From Xaviernesmea rhizosphaerae (GTDB lineage: Bacteria > Pseudomonadota > Alphaproteobacteria > Rhizobiales > Rhizobiaceae), in the NCBI RefSeq assembly GCF_001938945.1, contig NZ_MKIO01000029.1, forward strand, positions 62,001 through 126,000: a stretch of 64,000 bases of DNA, given 5' to 3'. The notes below the pieces were generated by a model. It saw nothing but the letters and a program-made list of their open reading frames with translations. It made no database searches and had not been told where the DNA came from. Below are positions 5,859-55,207 of the stretch, piece after piece. A program made the position numbers and the translations under genes. Each line of letters opens with the position of its first letter. Within the stretch, counting starts at the first letter, position 1.

Positions 5859-6518
5859 TCAGAATACGAATTCACGGGCCAGGCGGAAGCCCGGCAGCGG
5901 CTTGACGGCCGTGTTGAAGGCCGGGCTTTCGGACACGATCCCGCCTTCGCGCAGGAAGAGCTTCGCACGTGAGGCATTCCCGTAGCCGACCACGGCAACG
6001 AGACGGCCGCCATCCTTCAGCTGGGCGAAGATCGCGTCGGGAACGGTTTCGACGGCGCCATGCAGGAAGATCACCTCATAGGGCGCCCCGGCCGCATGAC
6101 CGGCTTCCAGCGGGCCTTCCACCACCGTGACATTGTCATAGCCCAGCGCGGCCAGCGTCGTCCTGGCCTGCGCGGCCAGAGCGCCATCGCTTTCCAGCGC
6201 GACGACAGAGCCGCCGATGCGCGAGAGGATGGCTGCGCCATAGCCGCTATTGCTGCCGATTTCGAGAATGGCGTCGCCCGGCTCGATCGCCGCCAGCTGC
6301 ACCAGCTTGGCGAGCGGCGAGGGCTCCATGACGTAGCGGCCACCATTGGCGGCGGAAACCTTCACATCCGTGTCGATATAGGCCAGCGCCTTCATCTCCT
6401 CGGGAACGAAGGCCTCGCGCGGCACCGTCAGAAAAGCGGAAAGCACCGGATGGGACGTGACATCCGTTGTCCGGACCTGGTTGTCGACCATTTTGATGCG
6501 TGCTGCTTCGAAATCCAT
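5859..6518 (-). CDS. Protein-L-isoaspartate O-methyltransferase family protein
   Basis: SAM-dependent methyltransferase of the PCMT/PIMT family, about 219 residues, inferred to methylate isoaspartyl residues in damaged proteins. The SAM-binding motif I is visible as ILEIGSNSGYGAAIL, and the N-terminal family signature VDNQVRTTDVTSH precedes it. The start is placed at 6518 (MDFEAARIKMVDNQ), preceded by a GAGGCAGAG stretch. The frame remains open to an ATG at 6560, but the extra 14 residues look unlike the family. The C-terminal VKPLPGFRLAREFVF is typical of the rhizobial form. Gene order with tolC and valS is common in rhizobia. True PIMT activity is not assured, because many alphaproteobacterial members are divergent. 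Confidence 0.85.
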   Translation of the reverse strand: MDFEAARIKMVDNQVRTTDVTSHPVLSAFLTVPREAFVPEEMKALAYIDTDVKVSAANGGRYVMEPSPLAKLVQLAAIEPGDAILEIGSNSGYGAAILSRIGGSVVALESDGALAAQARTTLAALGYDNVTVVEGPLEAGHAAGAPYEVIFLHGAVETVPDAIFAQLKDGGRLVAVVGYGNASRAKLFLREGGIVSESPAFNTAVKPLPGFRLAREFVF

Positions 6519-8366: not shown

Positions 8367-8408
8367 GACGAGTTCTCCCTGCGACGCCCGCTTCGGCGCG
8401 GCGAATGT

Positions 8409-8531
8409 CATACGGTTTCCGGCCGATCGCTTCGCGAACCGGAAACAAGAACCAACGAAAATCTCTGGCAGGAAGGCCAGATTTTCGATGGAAGGCGTAC
8501 GGTTTTCGGTCTGATCAACCGGAAACCGTAT
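8409..8531. repeat. Composite palindromic repeat upstream of exbB
   Basis: Two hairpins lie in the exbB leader or promoter region. The first (8415-8446) pairs GTTTCCGG with CCGGAAAC. The second (8498-8530) pairs TACGGTTTTCGGT with ACCGGAAACCGTA, with one G.T mismatch. The outer arms also match each other over 13 bp: ATACGGTTTCCGG at 8410-8422 and its exact complement at 8519-8531. The inner GATCGCTTCGCGA recurs at about 12954-12966. This looks like a dispersed palindromic repeat family, though an operator role is possible given its position. Confidence 0.6.
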
Positions 8532-8695
8532 CAGTCCAGCGGGCTGATCTCGACCTTTGCCAACCGCTCGCAAAATCCCCGAGGGCCAACAATCAAAATC
8601 ATGAGGATCACTGAATAAGCGAATGTTTTCCATTGGAATTTTCGAAATTGCCGTTTGATCCCCAGAGCGCGGCAGATCGGCATCACCTGTCAAAT

Positions 8696-11588: not shown

Positions 11589-12878
11589 GTGGCGAATAAA
11601 AGCGCAGTCTTCACGGTCGATGAAAAGCAGGTCGAAATGCCGGTGCGATCCGGCTCCATCGGTCCCGATGTGATCGACATCGGCACGCTCTACAAGAATA
11701 CGGGCACGTTCACCTACGATCCGGGGTTCACCTCGACCGCATCCTGCGAATCCAAGATCACCTATATCGACGGTGACGAAGGCGTTCTCCTGCACCGCGG
11801 CTATCCGATCGAGCAGCTGGCCGAGCATGGCGACTTCCTCGAAGTCTGCTACCTGCTGCTGTACGGCGAACTGCCGACGGCAAACCAGAAGAAGGACTTC
11901 GACCACCGCGTGACCATGCACACCATGGTTCACGAGCAGATGAGCCGCTTCTTCACCGGCTATCGCCGCGACGCCCATCCGATGGCCGTCATGTGCGGCA
12001 CGGTCGGCGCTCTCTCGGCCTTCTATCACGACTCGACCGACATCACCGATCCGCACCAGCGCATGGTCGCTTCGCTGCGCATGATCGCCAAGATGCCGAC
12101 GATCGCCGCCATGGCCTACAAGTACCATATCGGCCAGCCCTTCGTTTACCCGAAGAACGACCTCGACTACGCCTCCAACTTCCTGCGCATGTGCTTCGCC
12201 GTTCCCTGCGAGGAGTATGTGGTGAACCCGGTTCTGGCCCGCGCCATGGACCGCATCTTCATCCTGCATGCCGACCACGAGCAGAACGCCTCGACCTCGA
12301 CCGTTCGTCTCGCCGGCTCCTCGGGCGCCAATCCCTTCGCCTGCATCGCGGCCGGCATCGCCTGCCTCTGGGGCCCGGCCCATGGCGGCGCCAACGAAGC
12401 GGCGCTCAACATGCTCGCCGAAATCGGCTCGGTCGACCGCATTCCGGAATATGTCGCCAAGGCCAAGGACAAGAACGATCCCTTCCGCCTGATGGGCTTC
12501 GGCCACCGCGTCTACAAGAACTACGACCCGCGCGCCAAGATCATGCAGAAGACCACGCATGAAGTGCTGGCCGAGCTTGGCCATCGCGACGACCCGCTGC
12601 TGGAAGTGGCGATGGAACTCGAGCGCATCGCACTGACCGACGAGTACTTCATCGAGAAGAAGCTCTACCCGAACATCGACTTCTACTCCGGCATCACGCT
12701 GAAGGCGCTGGGCTTCCCCACGACCATGTTCACCGTGCTCTTCGCGCTCGCCCGCACCGTCGGCTGGATCGCGCAGTGGAACGAGATGATCGAAGACCCG
12801 CAGCAGCGCATCGGCCGTCCGCGCCAGCTCTACACCGGCGAACCGAAGCGCGATTACGTTCCGGTTCCCAAGCGCTAA
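11589..12878 (+). CDS. gltA: Citrate synthase (type I)
   Basis: Condenses acetyl-CoA with oxaloacetate at the entry of the TCA cycle. The start is a GTG at 11589 (protein begins [14 protein letters not shown]). It is preceded by GGAGG with a 6-base spacing, which is better placed than the in-frame ATG at 11562. The 429-residue product matches the usual rhizobial length. Family signatures are visible: the active-site stretch [17 protein letters not shown], the catalytic His region [13 protein letters not shown], and [15 protein letters not shown] strong terminator follows at once. Very secure. Confidence 0.98.
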
Positions 12879-12902
12879 GGCGCCGAAACGCTGACAGACA
12901 GA

Positions 12903-12930
12903 AACCCGGCTGGAAACGGCCGGGTTTTTT
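12903..12930 (+). terminator. Rho-independent terminator of gltA
   Basis: AACCCGGC pairs with GCCGGGTT and is followed by a run of T (six T in total). It lies 24 bases after the gltA stop. A classic intrinsic terminator. Confidence 0.9.
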
Positions 12931-12942
12931 GATGGGTAATAC

Positions 12943-13147
12943 GAAATCCGGTTGATCGCTTCGCGATGTCTGGAGCGTCTTGGCAGAGGCGCACAGTCCT
13001 CGTTTCGTCATGCTCGGGCCTGTCGCGAGCATCTCGCAAACGCCTGATATGTCGATAAACCAACCGCCATGGCAGATCCTCGGGACGAGCCCGAGGATGA
13101 CGTCGCGCGCGATGATCGTCCTTGCCGGAAATCTCAAAAGCCGGACG
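12943..13147. repeat. RIME-like mosaic palindromic repeat, copy A
   Basis: About 205 bp between the convergent 3' ends of gltA and lpxB. The core (about 13069-13107) carries CATGGCAGATCCTCGGGAC, a hairpin of TCCTCGGG and CCCGAGGA, then GATGACGTCGC. An inverted relative of the same arm, TCATGCTCGGGCC, lies about 70 bp to the left. A second copy sits at about 54948-55164 with nearly identical core (one difference in about 39 bases) and more diverged flanks. The left end (TACG..ATCCGG..GATCGCTTCGCGA) also matches the exbB-upstream repeat. I read this as a rhizobial intergenic mosaic element. Confidence 0.75.
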
Positions 13148-13153
13148 TGACGC

Positions 13154-14353
13154 TCAGATGCCGGCGCTGCGCCCTTCGGCATAGGCCAGCACGATCGCGG
13201 CCCCCGCCTCGCCCGGCGGCACCGGGGTCTGCATGCGCGCCATCACCAGGTCGAAGCCGACGCGCATGGCGCGGCGCTGGTCGGTGTCGAACGCCAGGCG
13301 TTCGATCCAGCGGGCGAGCGCACCGGGGCGGATCGATTCGTTGAAATATTCGGGAACGACCGGATAGTCGGCGATCAGGTTCGGCAGCGCGCCGGTCCAG
13401 ATGCGGATGCGGCTGTGCATCAGCTTGATCAACCAATCGGCACGATAGGTGGAGACCACGGGAATGCCGCAGAGGCCAAGCTCGAGGATGACCGTGCCGG
13501 AGGCCGCCAGCGCAGCGTCGGCCTCGGCGAAGGCCTCCCATTTCGCCTCGGCGCCGACGCTGATCTCGGGCTTATGCGGCCAATTAGCCACCAAGTCCCT
13601 GACCCGTGCTTCCTGCCGGGGCACGGTGGGCAGGAGGAAGCGCATGGTCGGGTGGCGCTCCTTCAGAAACAGCATGGCCGCCTGGAATTCCGGCAGGAGC
13701 CGCGTGATCTCGGCGCCGCGCGAGCCGGGCAGCAACAGGCAGGTGCGCGGAGCGTCTTTCGCCTCACCATCGCGCTCCCGCTCTCTCTCGCGCGCGCTCT
13801 GACGGGCACGCACGGCCAGCACCGCGGCATCCTGCGCCAGCCGATGGCCGACATAGCTGGTCTTCGGTCCGCCGAGACGGGCCATCACCTCCGGCTCGAA
13901 GGGCAGCACCGCCAGCACATGATCGACATAACCGCGCATCCGCGGCGCGCGATATTCCTTCCAGGCCCAGACGCTGGGGCAGACATAGTCGATGATGGGC
14001 ACGCCCGGCAGCGCCGCGCGCACGCGCCTGGCGACGCGATGGGTGAAATCCGGGCTATCGATGATCAAGAGCACATCCGGCCGGGCCGCGATCAGCGCGT
14101 CGGCCGTCTGGCGGATGCGGCGGATCAGCGTCGGCAGCCGCGCCAGCACCTGGGACAGGCCCATGATCGACAGTTCGCTGTAATCGAACAGCGATGCCAG
14201 CCCCTCGCGCTGCAGGTCCTCGCCGCCGACGCCGACGAGACGGACCGGCCGGTCCGTCTGCCGCTTCAAGGCGCGAATCAGGTCGCCGCCGAGCAGGTCG
14301 CCGGACACCTCGCCGGCAACCACGCCCACGGTCAGGACGGGACGATCGGCCAT
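13154..14353 (-). CDS. lpxB: Lipid-A-disaccharide synthase
   Basis: GT19 glycosyltransferase that joins UDP-2,3-diacylglucosamine and lipid X to the lipid A disaccharide on the inner membrane. The start at 14353 (MADRPVLTVGVVAGEVSGD) is 2 bases after the lpxI stop with an AAGGAG ribosome site. The product is 399 residues. Family motifs include GEVSGDLLGGDL, VLLIIDSPDFTHRVARRV, CPSVWAWKEYR and LLLPGSRGAEI. An Arg/Glu-rich low-complexity insert (ARQSARERERER, residues about 183-195) is encoded by a simple-sequence tract just before the LLLPGSR motif and is unusual for the family. Last gene of the lpx cluster. Confidence 0.96.
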   Translation of the reverse strand: MADRPVLTVGVVAGEVSGDLLGGDLIRALKRQTDRPVRLVGVGGEDLQREGLASLFDYSELSIMGLSQVLARLPTLIRRIRQTADALIAARPDVLLIIDSPDFTHRVARRVRAALPGVPIIDYVCPSVWAWKEYRAPRMRGYVDHVLAVLPFEPEVMARLGGPKTSYVGHRLAQDAAVLAVRARQSARERERERDGEAKDAPRTCLLLPGSRGAEITRLLPEFQAAMLFLKERHPTMRFLLPTVPRQEARVRDLVANWPHKPEISVGAEAKWEAFAEADAALAASGTVILELGLCGIPVVSTYRADWLIKLMHSRIRIWTGALPNLIADYPVVPEYFNESIRPGALARWIERLAFDTDQRRAMRVGFDLVMARMQTPVPPGEAGAAIVLAYAEGRSAGI

Positions 14354-27343: not shown

Positions 27344-27505
27344 GCCTTTTACTCCTTTTCCGGTTTAACCTCCGCGAAGTGAACAGCCCGCCCGATCATG
27401 TTCGGATACGGACAAAGCCACCGGCGGAACCGCCGGATGTCTCCCGGTCGATCCCAACTTCGCGTGTGGAATGGTGGGCGCCATACAGGATGGCCGACGA
27501 ACAAT

Positions 27506-54947: not shown

Positions 54948-55164
54948 GAGTACGAAAGCGCGAGCCCTCGCCTTCGCATCCATGCAAAGGCCCGTCCCGA
55001 GGCTGCGCAAGCTCCTCGTTGCGTCATGCTCAGGCTTGCCCCGAGCATCTGCAAACGTTTGATATATCTACGAATCACTGAACATGGCAGATCCTCGGGA
55101 CAAGCCCGAGGATGACGTCGCACGTGATGGTTATCTCTGGCAGAAACCTCAAAATTCCGCCTGA
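54948..55164. repeat. RIME-like mosaic palindromic repeat, copy B
   Basis: About 215 bp just after psuG. It matches copy A at 12943-13147. The best-conserved part is CATGGCAGATCCTCGGGAC, then AGCCCGAGGATGACGTCGC, which folds as TCCTCGGG/CCCGAGGA (55092-55112). An inverted relative, GTCATGCTCAGGC, lies about 70 bp to the left. Flank similarity extends leftwards to a shared TACGAAA and rightwards to a shared AACCTCAAAA/AATCTCAAAA. Confidence 0.75.
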
Positions 55165-55207
55165 TCTCCTATCACAGGACAGGGCGCAAATGTCTTTGAC
55201 CCTGGCT

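Follow-up and report, generated by a model that had tools for sequence, protein, structure and literature searches.

A probable worn MITE copy carrying a pair of CGTC REPs between gltA and lpxB of Xaviernesmea rhizosphaerae

The window analyzed here is a stretch of 64,000 nucleotides of Xaviernesmea rhizosphaerae (contig NZ_MKIO01000029.1, positions 62,001 to 126,000 of the forward strand), in which two genes whose products match the Pfam profiles of citrate synthase and LpxB converge on a common intergenic region. These are presumably gltA and lpxB, the short gene names in the window following an earlier, sequence-only reading or general usage. That reading had placed a palindromic repeat of about 200 bp between the two genes, at 12943-13147. 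The repeat and its convergent surroundings are real, but the element, a member of what is called family A below, is slightly larger. It starts at 12940 and reaches about 13153, where damage has changed or removed the final 13-16 nt or so of the family consensus (Table 1). The lpxB stop codon may have been the original insertion target, since its TCA at 13154-13156 abuts the damaged end and lpxB, as judged by eye, ends at the same codon in Xaviernesmea oryzae; the left flanking triplet of the window copy is TAA and thus differs from it. The window contains one further family A copy, which also lies between convergent genes, with Pfam matches to Indigoidine_A and HflX, and a related repeat at 8.4 kb lies beside a gene matching MotA_ExbB.

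Table 1. Coordinates of the repeat elements and adjoining features in the window
Feature	Position	Strand	Basis or remark
Terminator-like hairpin of gltA with T run	12902..12930	+	Read by eye; outside the element, common to relatives
Left flanking triplet TAA, TNA type	12937..12939		Candidate target-site copy without an intact right counterpart
Family A element, window copy	12940..13153 (right border approximate)	+	Consensus positions 1-210 of about 226 matched
Left terminal repeat TACGAAATCCGGTTGATC	12940..12957	+	Consensus alignment and terminal-pattern search
Left CGTC-tagged REP, tag outward	13006..13034	+	Imperfect hairpin in window copy (by eye); arm search, alignment, description in PMC3733652
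Spacer separating both REPs	13035..13073	+	Arm search
Right CGTC-tagged REP, opposite orientation, 9-bp stem, 5-nt loop	13074..13102	-	Arm search and stem analysis
lpxB stop codon (TCA on the plus strand)	13154..13156	-	Adjoins damaged right end; possible original TNA target
Second family A copy	54951..55176	+	Decayed ends, convergent genes on either side
Left target-site copy TCA of family B element	8408..8410
Family B element, 5' of exbB-like gene, 120 bp	8411..8530	+	Related terminal repeats, no REP core
Right target-site copy TCA of family B element	8531..8533

gltA adjoins lpxB in 72 of 80 named relatives, with a gap of at most 40 nt in 46 of them, and the gap in X. rhizosphaerae measures 279 nt in the same way, or 275 nt between the stop codons. 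For annotation purposes, the element explains this long gap, and it serves as a warning that repeats can alter gene ends in these genomes. When the loci of the 80 relatives (most of about 11 kb) were searched with the family A consensus, all eight matches at E <0.5 fell in three loci, those of a strain bearing the label X. oryzae B4P, Sinorhizobium meliloti 4H41 and S. medicae (L058, L070 and L085; gap at about 6149-6400), and all of them lay in the gltA-lpxB gap or overlapped the lpxB edge, the sequences concerned being REPs. Because the matches are confined to this one gap, it probably acquired CGTC REPs repeatedly, although a single acquisition may underlie both Sinorhizobium cases. Two further loci of Sinorhizobium/Ensifer (L059, L072) have a different repeat-like insert in the same gap.

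Inside the element lies a pair of inverted arms, which the earlier reading had noticed at about 70 bp from each other: TCATGCTCGGGC at 13008-13019 and GCCCGAGGATGA at 13089-13100 are separated by 69 nt, and the repeat arms extend to 29 nt each (13006-13034 and 13074-13102), with 83% complementarity and a spacing of 39 nt. The right arm forms a stem of 9 bp with a loop of 5 nt; the hairpin of the left arm is imperfect in the window copy. CGTC REPs are characterized by a CGTC tag, a 9-bp stem starting with AT, a 5-nt loop and an arrangement in head-to-head dimers, according to their description (Di Nocera 2013, PMC3733652). The family A consensus has all of these traits: its core reads CGTCAT... 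and ...ATGACG, which places the tag at the palindrome end and AT at the opening of the stem, as in REP families 3/4; its stems and loops, ATGCTCGGG-CTTGT-CCCGAGCAT and ATCCTCGGG-ACAAG-CCCGAGGAT, have the expected 9 bp and 5 nt; and the two REPs stand head to head with their tags outside. The likeness to the published dimers extends to a heterodimer whose left and right stems differ by a compensated base, an intergenic location and a preference for 3' ends. On the other hand, the family A pair sits inside an envelope of about 226 bp that has terminal repeats and TNA direct repeats of its own, and the published CCA tail is not evident, the consensus tail being CTG, whereas the paper gives a tail that is mostly, not always, CCA. 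In the same paper, the CGTC-1 dimers of H. neapolitanus lie in 41-bp palindromes and are likewise REP dimers inside a longer palindrome, but the family A envelope is longer, TNA direct repeats flank it, and related ends also exist without REPs. Elsewhere, REP pairs without family A ends are found in another envelope (CCTCTC...GAGAGG) that extends rightward (L022, L023, L024, L026, L027 and L144).

The genome of X. rhizosphaerae, a draft of 5.53 Mb in 48 contigs, holds many further copies, as would be expected of the repeated palindromic mosaic element that had been proposed. When the best 40 of 92 candidates were scored, the gltA-lpxB repeat had at least 47 matches in it, far more than chance would give; for the family A consensus there were at least 66 (best 40 of 85 candidates scored), numbers that differ from the number of copies because the palindrome often matches on the other strand as well and short REP cores are included. 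Counted by places that span 150 bp or more, there are at least 17, with a few more of about 100 bp, that is, some twenty dispersed copies. The predicted second copy at 54.95 kb aligns with the first at 55005-55154, with 79% identity over 151 bp (E 3e-31). A duplicated gene fragment as the source of this resemblance is ruled out, since the similarity ends at the element edges amid many unrelated gene contexts.

The family A consensus, rounded to 226 bp, starts with TACGAAATCCGGTTGATC and ends with GGATTTCGTA. Once minus-strand copies had been turned (5 of the first 12), the alignment gave terminal inverted repeats, TACGAAATCC/GGATTTCGTA, such as MITEs have, and the family ends can be written as the pattern TACGRWWTCCGG. 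Most of 14 aligned copies have these ends in common; the right side is truncated in L012 and L014, and both ends of L002 are worn. Over its full length the consensus is an imperfect palindrome: when it is aligned, with gaps, to its reverse complement, 164 of 226 positions agree.

The resemblance of the left end to the repeat upstream of exbB, first noticed as the 13-mer GATCGCTTCGCGA (12954-12966 in the family A copy, 8425-8437 in the other), goes beyond that string. The exbB-upstream repeat belongs to a second family, B, which starts with TACGGTTTCCGGYTGATC and ends with CCGGAAACCGTA; at least 14 full copies occur in the genome, including that in the window, with at least 88% identity to the query (best 40 of 59 candidates scored). 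The terminal repeats of families A and B are related, and TNA triplets flank both. The halves of family B also occur singly, as palindromes of 32-33 bp and of 40 bp. Three size classes of repeat, namely A, B and the single palindromes, thus have related ends and TNA repeats.

The flanking triplets bear the marks of transposition. The ends of 34 copies (20 of family A, 14 of family B) were placed by consensus alignment and the triplets outside them compared. Family A copies that retained 7 or fewer of the 12 terminal bases at either end were regarded as worn and left out before counting, ten in all; one of these, L019, has TGA at both sides. Identical triplets flank 5 of the 10 remaining family A copies (shuffle mean 2.0, P 0.008) and 11 of the 14 family B copies (shuffle mean 5.7, P 0.0007). 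In the pooled set, 16 of 24 are identical (shuffle mean 6.8), a value reached in 0 of 50,000 shuffles, which indicates target-site duplication at the level of the families, though not for the window copy. All 16 matching triplets are of the TNA type (TCA, TGA or TTA). The triplets do not match in L004, where a one-base shift gives TCA/TCA, nor in L005, L009, L010 and L015 of family A, nor in L196, L197 and L200 of family B. Similarly, identical TNA triplets flank five of seven closed single palindromes in the same genome (L205, L206, L207, L208 and L253; not L250 and L252), a count that leaves out L249, which has no pair, and the short matches C19:32392 and C42:33573; if L204 and L209, apparent cut left halves of family B with differing triplets, are included, the figure becomes five of nine. 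For L212 and L216, which are single palindromes of two further genomes, the left and right triplets differ at one base, and in G134, a genome of another genus, the family B copies L246 and L247 have identical triplets as read, L245 has them after a one-base shift and L244 does not. Members of the IS1031 group of the IS5 family are described as inserting at TNA and leaving 3-bp direct repeats (PMC12016507), and the same habit is found here at the level of the families. An IS630-type TA target, with the ends read as TA, was rejected, since the base next to the TA, the variable middle one of the triplet, agrees between both sides more often than in shuffles. In some cases the stop codon of the neighbouring gene coincides exactly with a flanking triplet: this holds for the right triplet in 6 of 14 family B copies and, among the 20 family A copies, for the left triplet of L006 alone.

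Sites without the element are found in the nearest genome, that of X. oryzae CGMCC 1.7048 (G001), whose lpxB protein is 83% identical. Orthologs of 9 of the 20 family A copies were sought there, and ten stretches were taken. Both flanks were found on one X. oryzae stretch for seven copies (L001, L002, L006, L007, L009, L011 and L012); the flanks of L017 are about 12 kb apart, and one flank only was found for L013. The family A consensus had no match at E 0.01 in the ten orthologous stretches, and five of the junctions, read by eye, are shorter and without the element, the intergenic divergence being too great for base-exact definition of an empty site. X. oryzae has two full family A copies of its own, and their longest alignments with 50 loci of X. 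rhizosphaerae are about as long as the element, with no common flank among the matches listed. From the seven empty orthologous sites and the lack of common flanks we infer that the insertions are lineage-specific. The many dispersed copies, together with relatives' sites devoid of the element, are as expected of a MITE.

Beyond these two species, 40 of 101 genomes, that of X. rhizosphaerae (G000) included, match the family A consensus, and among the matches listed only G000 and G001 exceed the REP pair (at most eight candidates scored per genome). Among the matches listed, the full envelope is thus seen in the genus Xaviernesmea only, and the REP core is widespread. In a plasmid collection, 59 records match the consensus, none of them with 80% coverage at a single location, and no record matches family B. 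At E 0.01, family B matches 9 of 201 genomes, with full copies among the matches listed only in G000 and G134 (at most four candidates scored per genome), the latter having at least four (L244, L245, L246 and L247), and it was not found in X. oryzae (best 4 of 23 candidates scored). Its presence in one other genus and not in X. oryzae is a patchy distribution that would fit transfer or loss. A non-exhaustive search of the literature found no description of these repeats in the genus Xaviernesmea; two further papers were also drawn on (PMC2573895, PMC2245857).

Taken together, the gltA-lpxB repeat is quite probably a non-autonomous MITE in a worn state, which carries a REP pair and depended for its movement on a DDE transposase acting in trans, one that chose targets as the IS5/IS1031 group does. 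Among the roles that the sequence-only reading had left side by side, namely mRNA 3' protection, nucleoid binding and a mobile origin, the last is the best supported. The transposase, supplied in trans, would cut the element ends and insert the element at TNA triplets, the head-to-head CGTC REP pair riding inside the envelope as cargo. Insertions at gene ends can spare the protein, since the stop codons TGA and TAA (on either strand) are TNA triplets, and between convergent genes an insertion would disturb no promoter. Like other bacterial MITEs such as RUP and Correia/NEMIS (PMC2229807), family A is small, gene-less and intergenic, and it has terminal inverted repeats and a target duplication; it differs from those described there in its 3-bp TNA duplication, its nested REP pair, the solo units down to 32-40 bp and the fact that no partner IS was found.

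The partner was sought around four DDE_Tnp_1 loci (G000) and nine DUF4096 loci (G000 and G134; partly the same), none of which has a terminal pair at two mismatches or fewer; at L232, one loose terminal pair has its right member within the transposase match. An autonomous partner was not found by the terminal-pattern search either, nor were ends in common with an IS1031-group element found around the transposase loci examined. The elements have the TNA preference and the 3-bp direct repeats of that group (PMC12016507), but family A is without a transposase gene, and its terminus TACGAAATCCGG is unlike that of the one member compared. Further points count against the MITE reading. The family A copies are old, with a mean pairwise identity of 75% among 12 of them; half of the ten measurable ones have unequal triplets, the right end of the window copy is damaged, and the divergence of X. 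oryzae blurs the empty sites. A DDE reaction that joins two ends would, moreover, have very little room on a palindrome of 32-33 bp.

The main alternative is a functional 3'-end element of the RIME or REP type, whose hairpins would protect mRNA or end transcription and would be selected at convergent gene ends. Gene calls for assessing it came from a simple codon-usage caller trained on eight window ORFs. Gene orientation could be assigned on both sides for 18 of the 20 family A copies: 14 of these have convergent neighbours, four tandem ones and none divergent ones. Of the 50 gene pairs that form the window background (two family A sites included), 40 are tandem, 5 convergent and 5 divergent (Fisher P 2e-7); small genes may have been missed, since the nearest called gene is more than 400 bp away on one side in 8 of the 20 copies. 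The bias suits a 3'-end role, as does the general preference of REPs for 3' ends (PMC3733652), but purifying selection on insertions would leave the same one. Family B has 11 tandem, 3 convergent and no divergent contexts (n=14). Strong folding also speaks for such a role: the window copy folded as RNA, as had been suggested for both strands, gave z scores of -2.4 and -2.6, one per strand, and the family A consensus as single-stranded DNA forms one long hairpin of -60.5 kcal/mol, compared with -33.6 for shuffles (z -7.7, a consensus possibly folding better than real copies).

Other observations point away from selection on the RNA. A scan of 12800-13300 listed neither terminators nor promoters, a weak argument since it also missed the hairpin read by eye at gltA, and no T run was seen by eye 3' of the element hairpins. 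In 19 copies, each REP stem has a single double change, and many pairs are broken (140 of 169 cells paired on the left, 148 of 163 on the right); the terminal repeats, with 112 of 173 cells paired, have eight double changes, which are read as decay rather than as structural support. L003, L006 and L008, with L015 similar, have an identical broken left hairpin, CCTGATATCT, a string also present in the consensus spacer, which suggests that a subfamily without that hairpin spread from one altered source copy. A 3'-end function as the explanation is thus unlikely, and an RNA role is regarded as secondary, given the missing compensatory pattern in the stems, the common broken hairpin and the terminator-like hairpin that gltA appears to have of its own. 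Transcribed hairpins may nonetheless influence mRNA 3' ends, an effect not required for explaining the spread.

It might also be supposed that the CGTC REP pair itself is the mobile unit, REPIN-like and moved by a RAYT or another HUH enzyme, the envelope being flanking DNA carried along. Pairs without the family A envelope do occur in this genome and in relatives, and a similar core is enclosed by at least one envelope of another type. This explanation is nevertheless very improbable: it is the envelope, not the REP pair, whose outer borders carry the TNA repeats, family B has related ends without a REP core, and CGTC repeats, which predominate in alphaproteobacteria, apparently lack a dedicated transposase, according to their description (PMC3733652). 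RAYT/REPIN mobility in particular was rejected for X. rhizosphaerae, whose genome has no match to the Y1_Tnp (RAYT) profile (0/1, with control positives in 5/14). The last candidate, a nucleoid-protein or recombination site spread via ectopic gene conversion instead of transposition, would account for similar cores in different envelopes, but gene conversion makes no new insertion sites with 3-bp direct repeats, and it can hardly be credited.

Within the reading of the gltA-lpxB repeat as a MITE copy, the three size classes might, tentatively, be brought together. The basic mobile unit could be the 32-40-bp palindrome, which would duplicate 3 bp on inserting at TNA, in many cases that of a stop codon, and paired units could act as composites, with the REP pair enclosed in family A (226 bp) and a segment that forms a hairpin in family B (120 bp). 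If true, this would provide a route by which CGTC REPs, devoid of a transposase, are spread. How they spread is left open in PMC3733652, and a family with transposition-marked ends and a REP pair inside is one concrete route. Since solo palindromes of only 32-40 bp have TNA repeats, they give a minimum size for such elements that can be tested.

Another palindromic intergenic repeat of Rhizobiaceae, RIME (Rhizobium-specific intergenic mosaic element), was reportedly described by Osteras in 1995. The likeness to RIME proposed in the sequence-only reading lacks support in the form given there. It has the palindromic nature, the intergenic location and the host family in common with family A, the full element of which was seen in one genus only, among the matches listed, and the chvI-chvG gap of S. 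meliloti 4H41, the one genome used for this comparison, contains no match. Nothing in Rfam matched the element at the gathering score. Elsewhere in the window, Rfam detected an rpsB sRNA (RF01815) at 27345-27468 on the minus strand, with 43.6 bits against a gathering score of 40.
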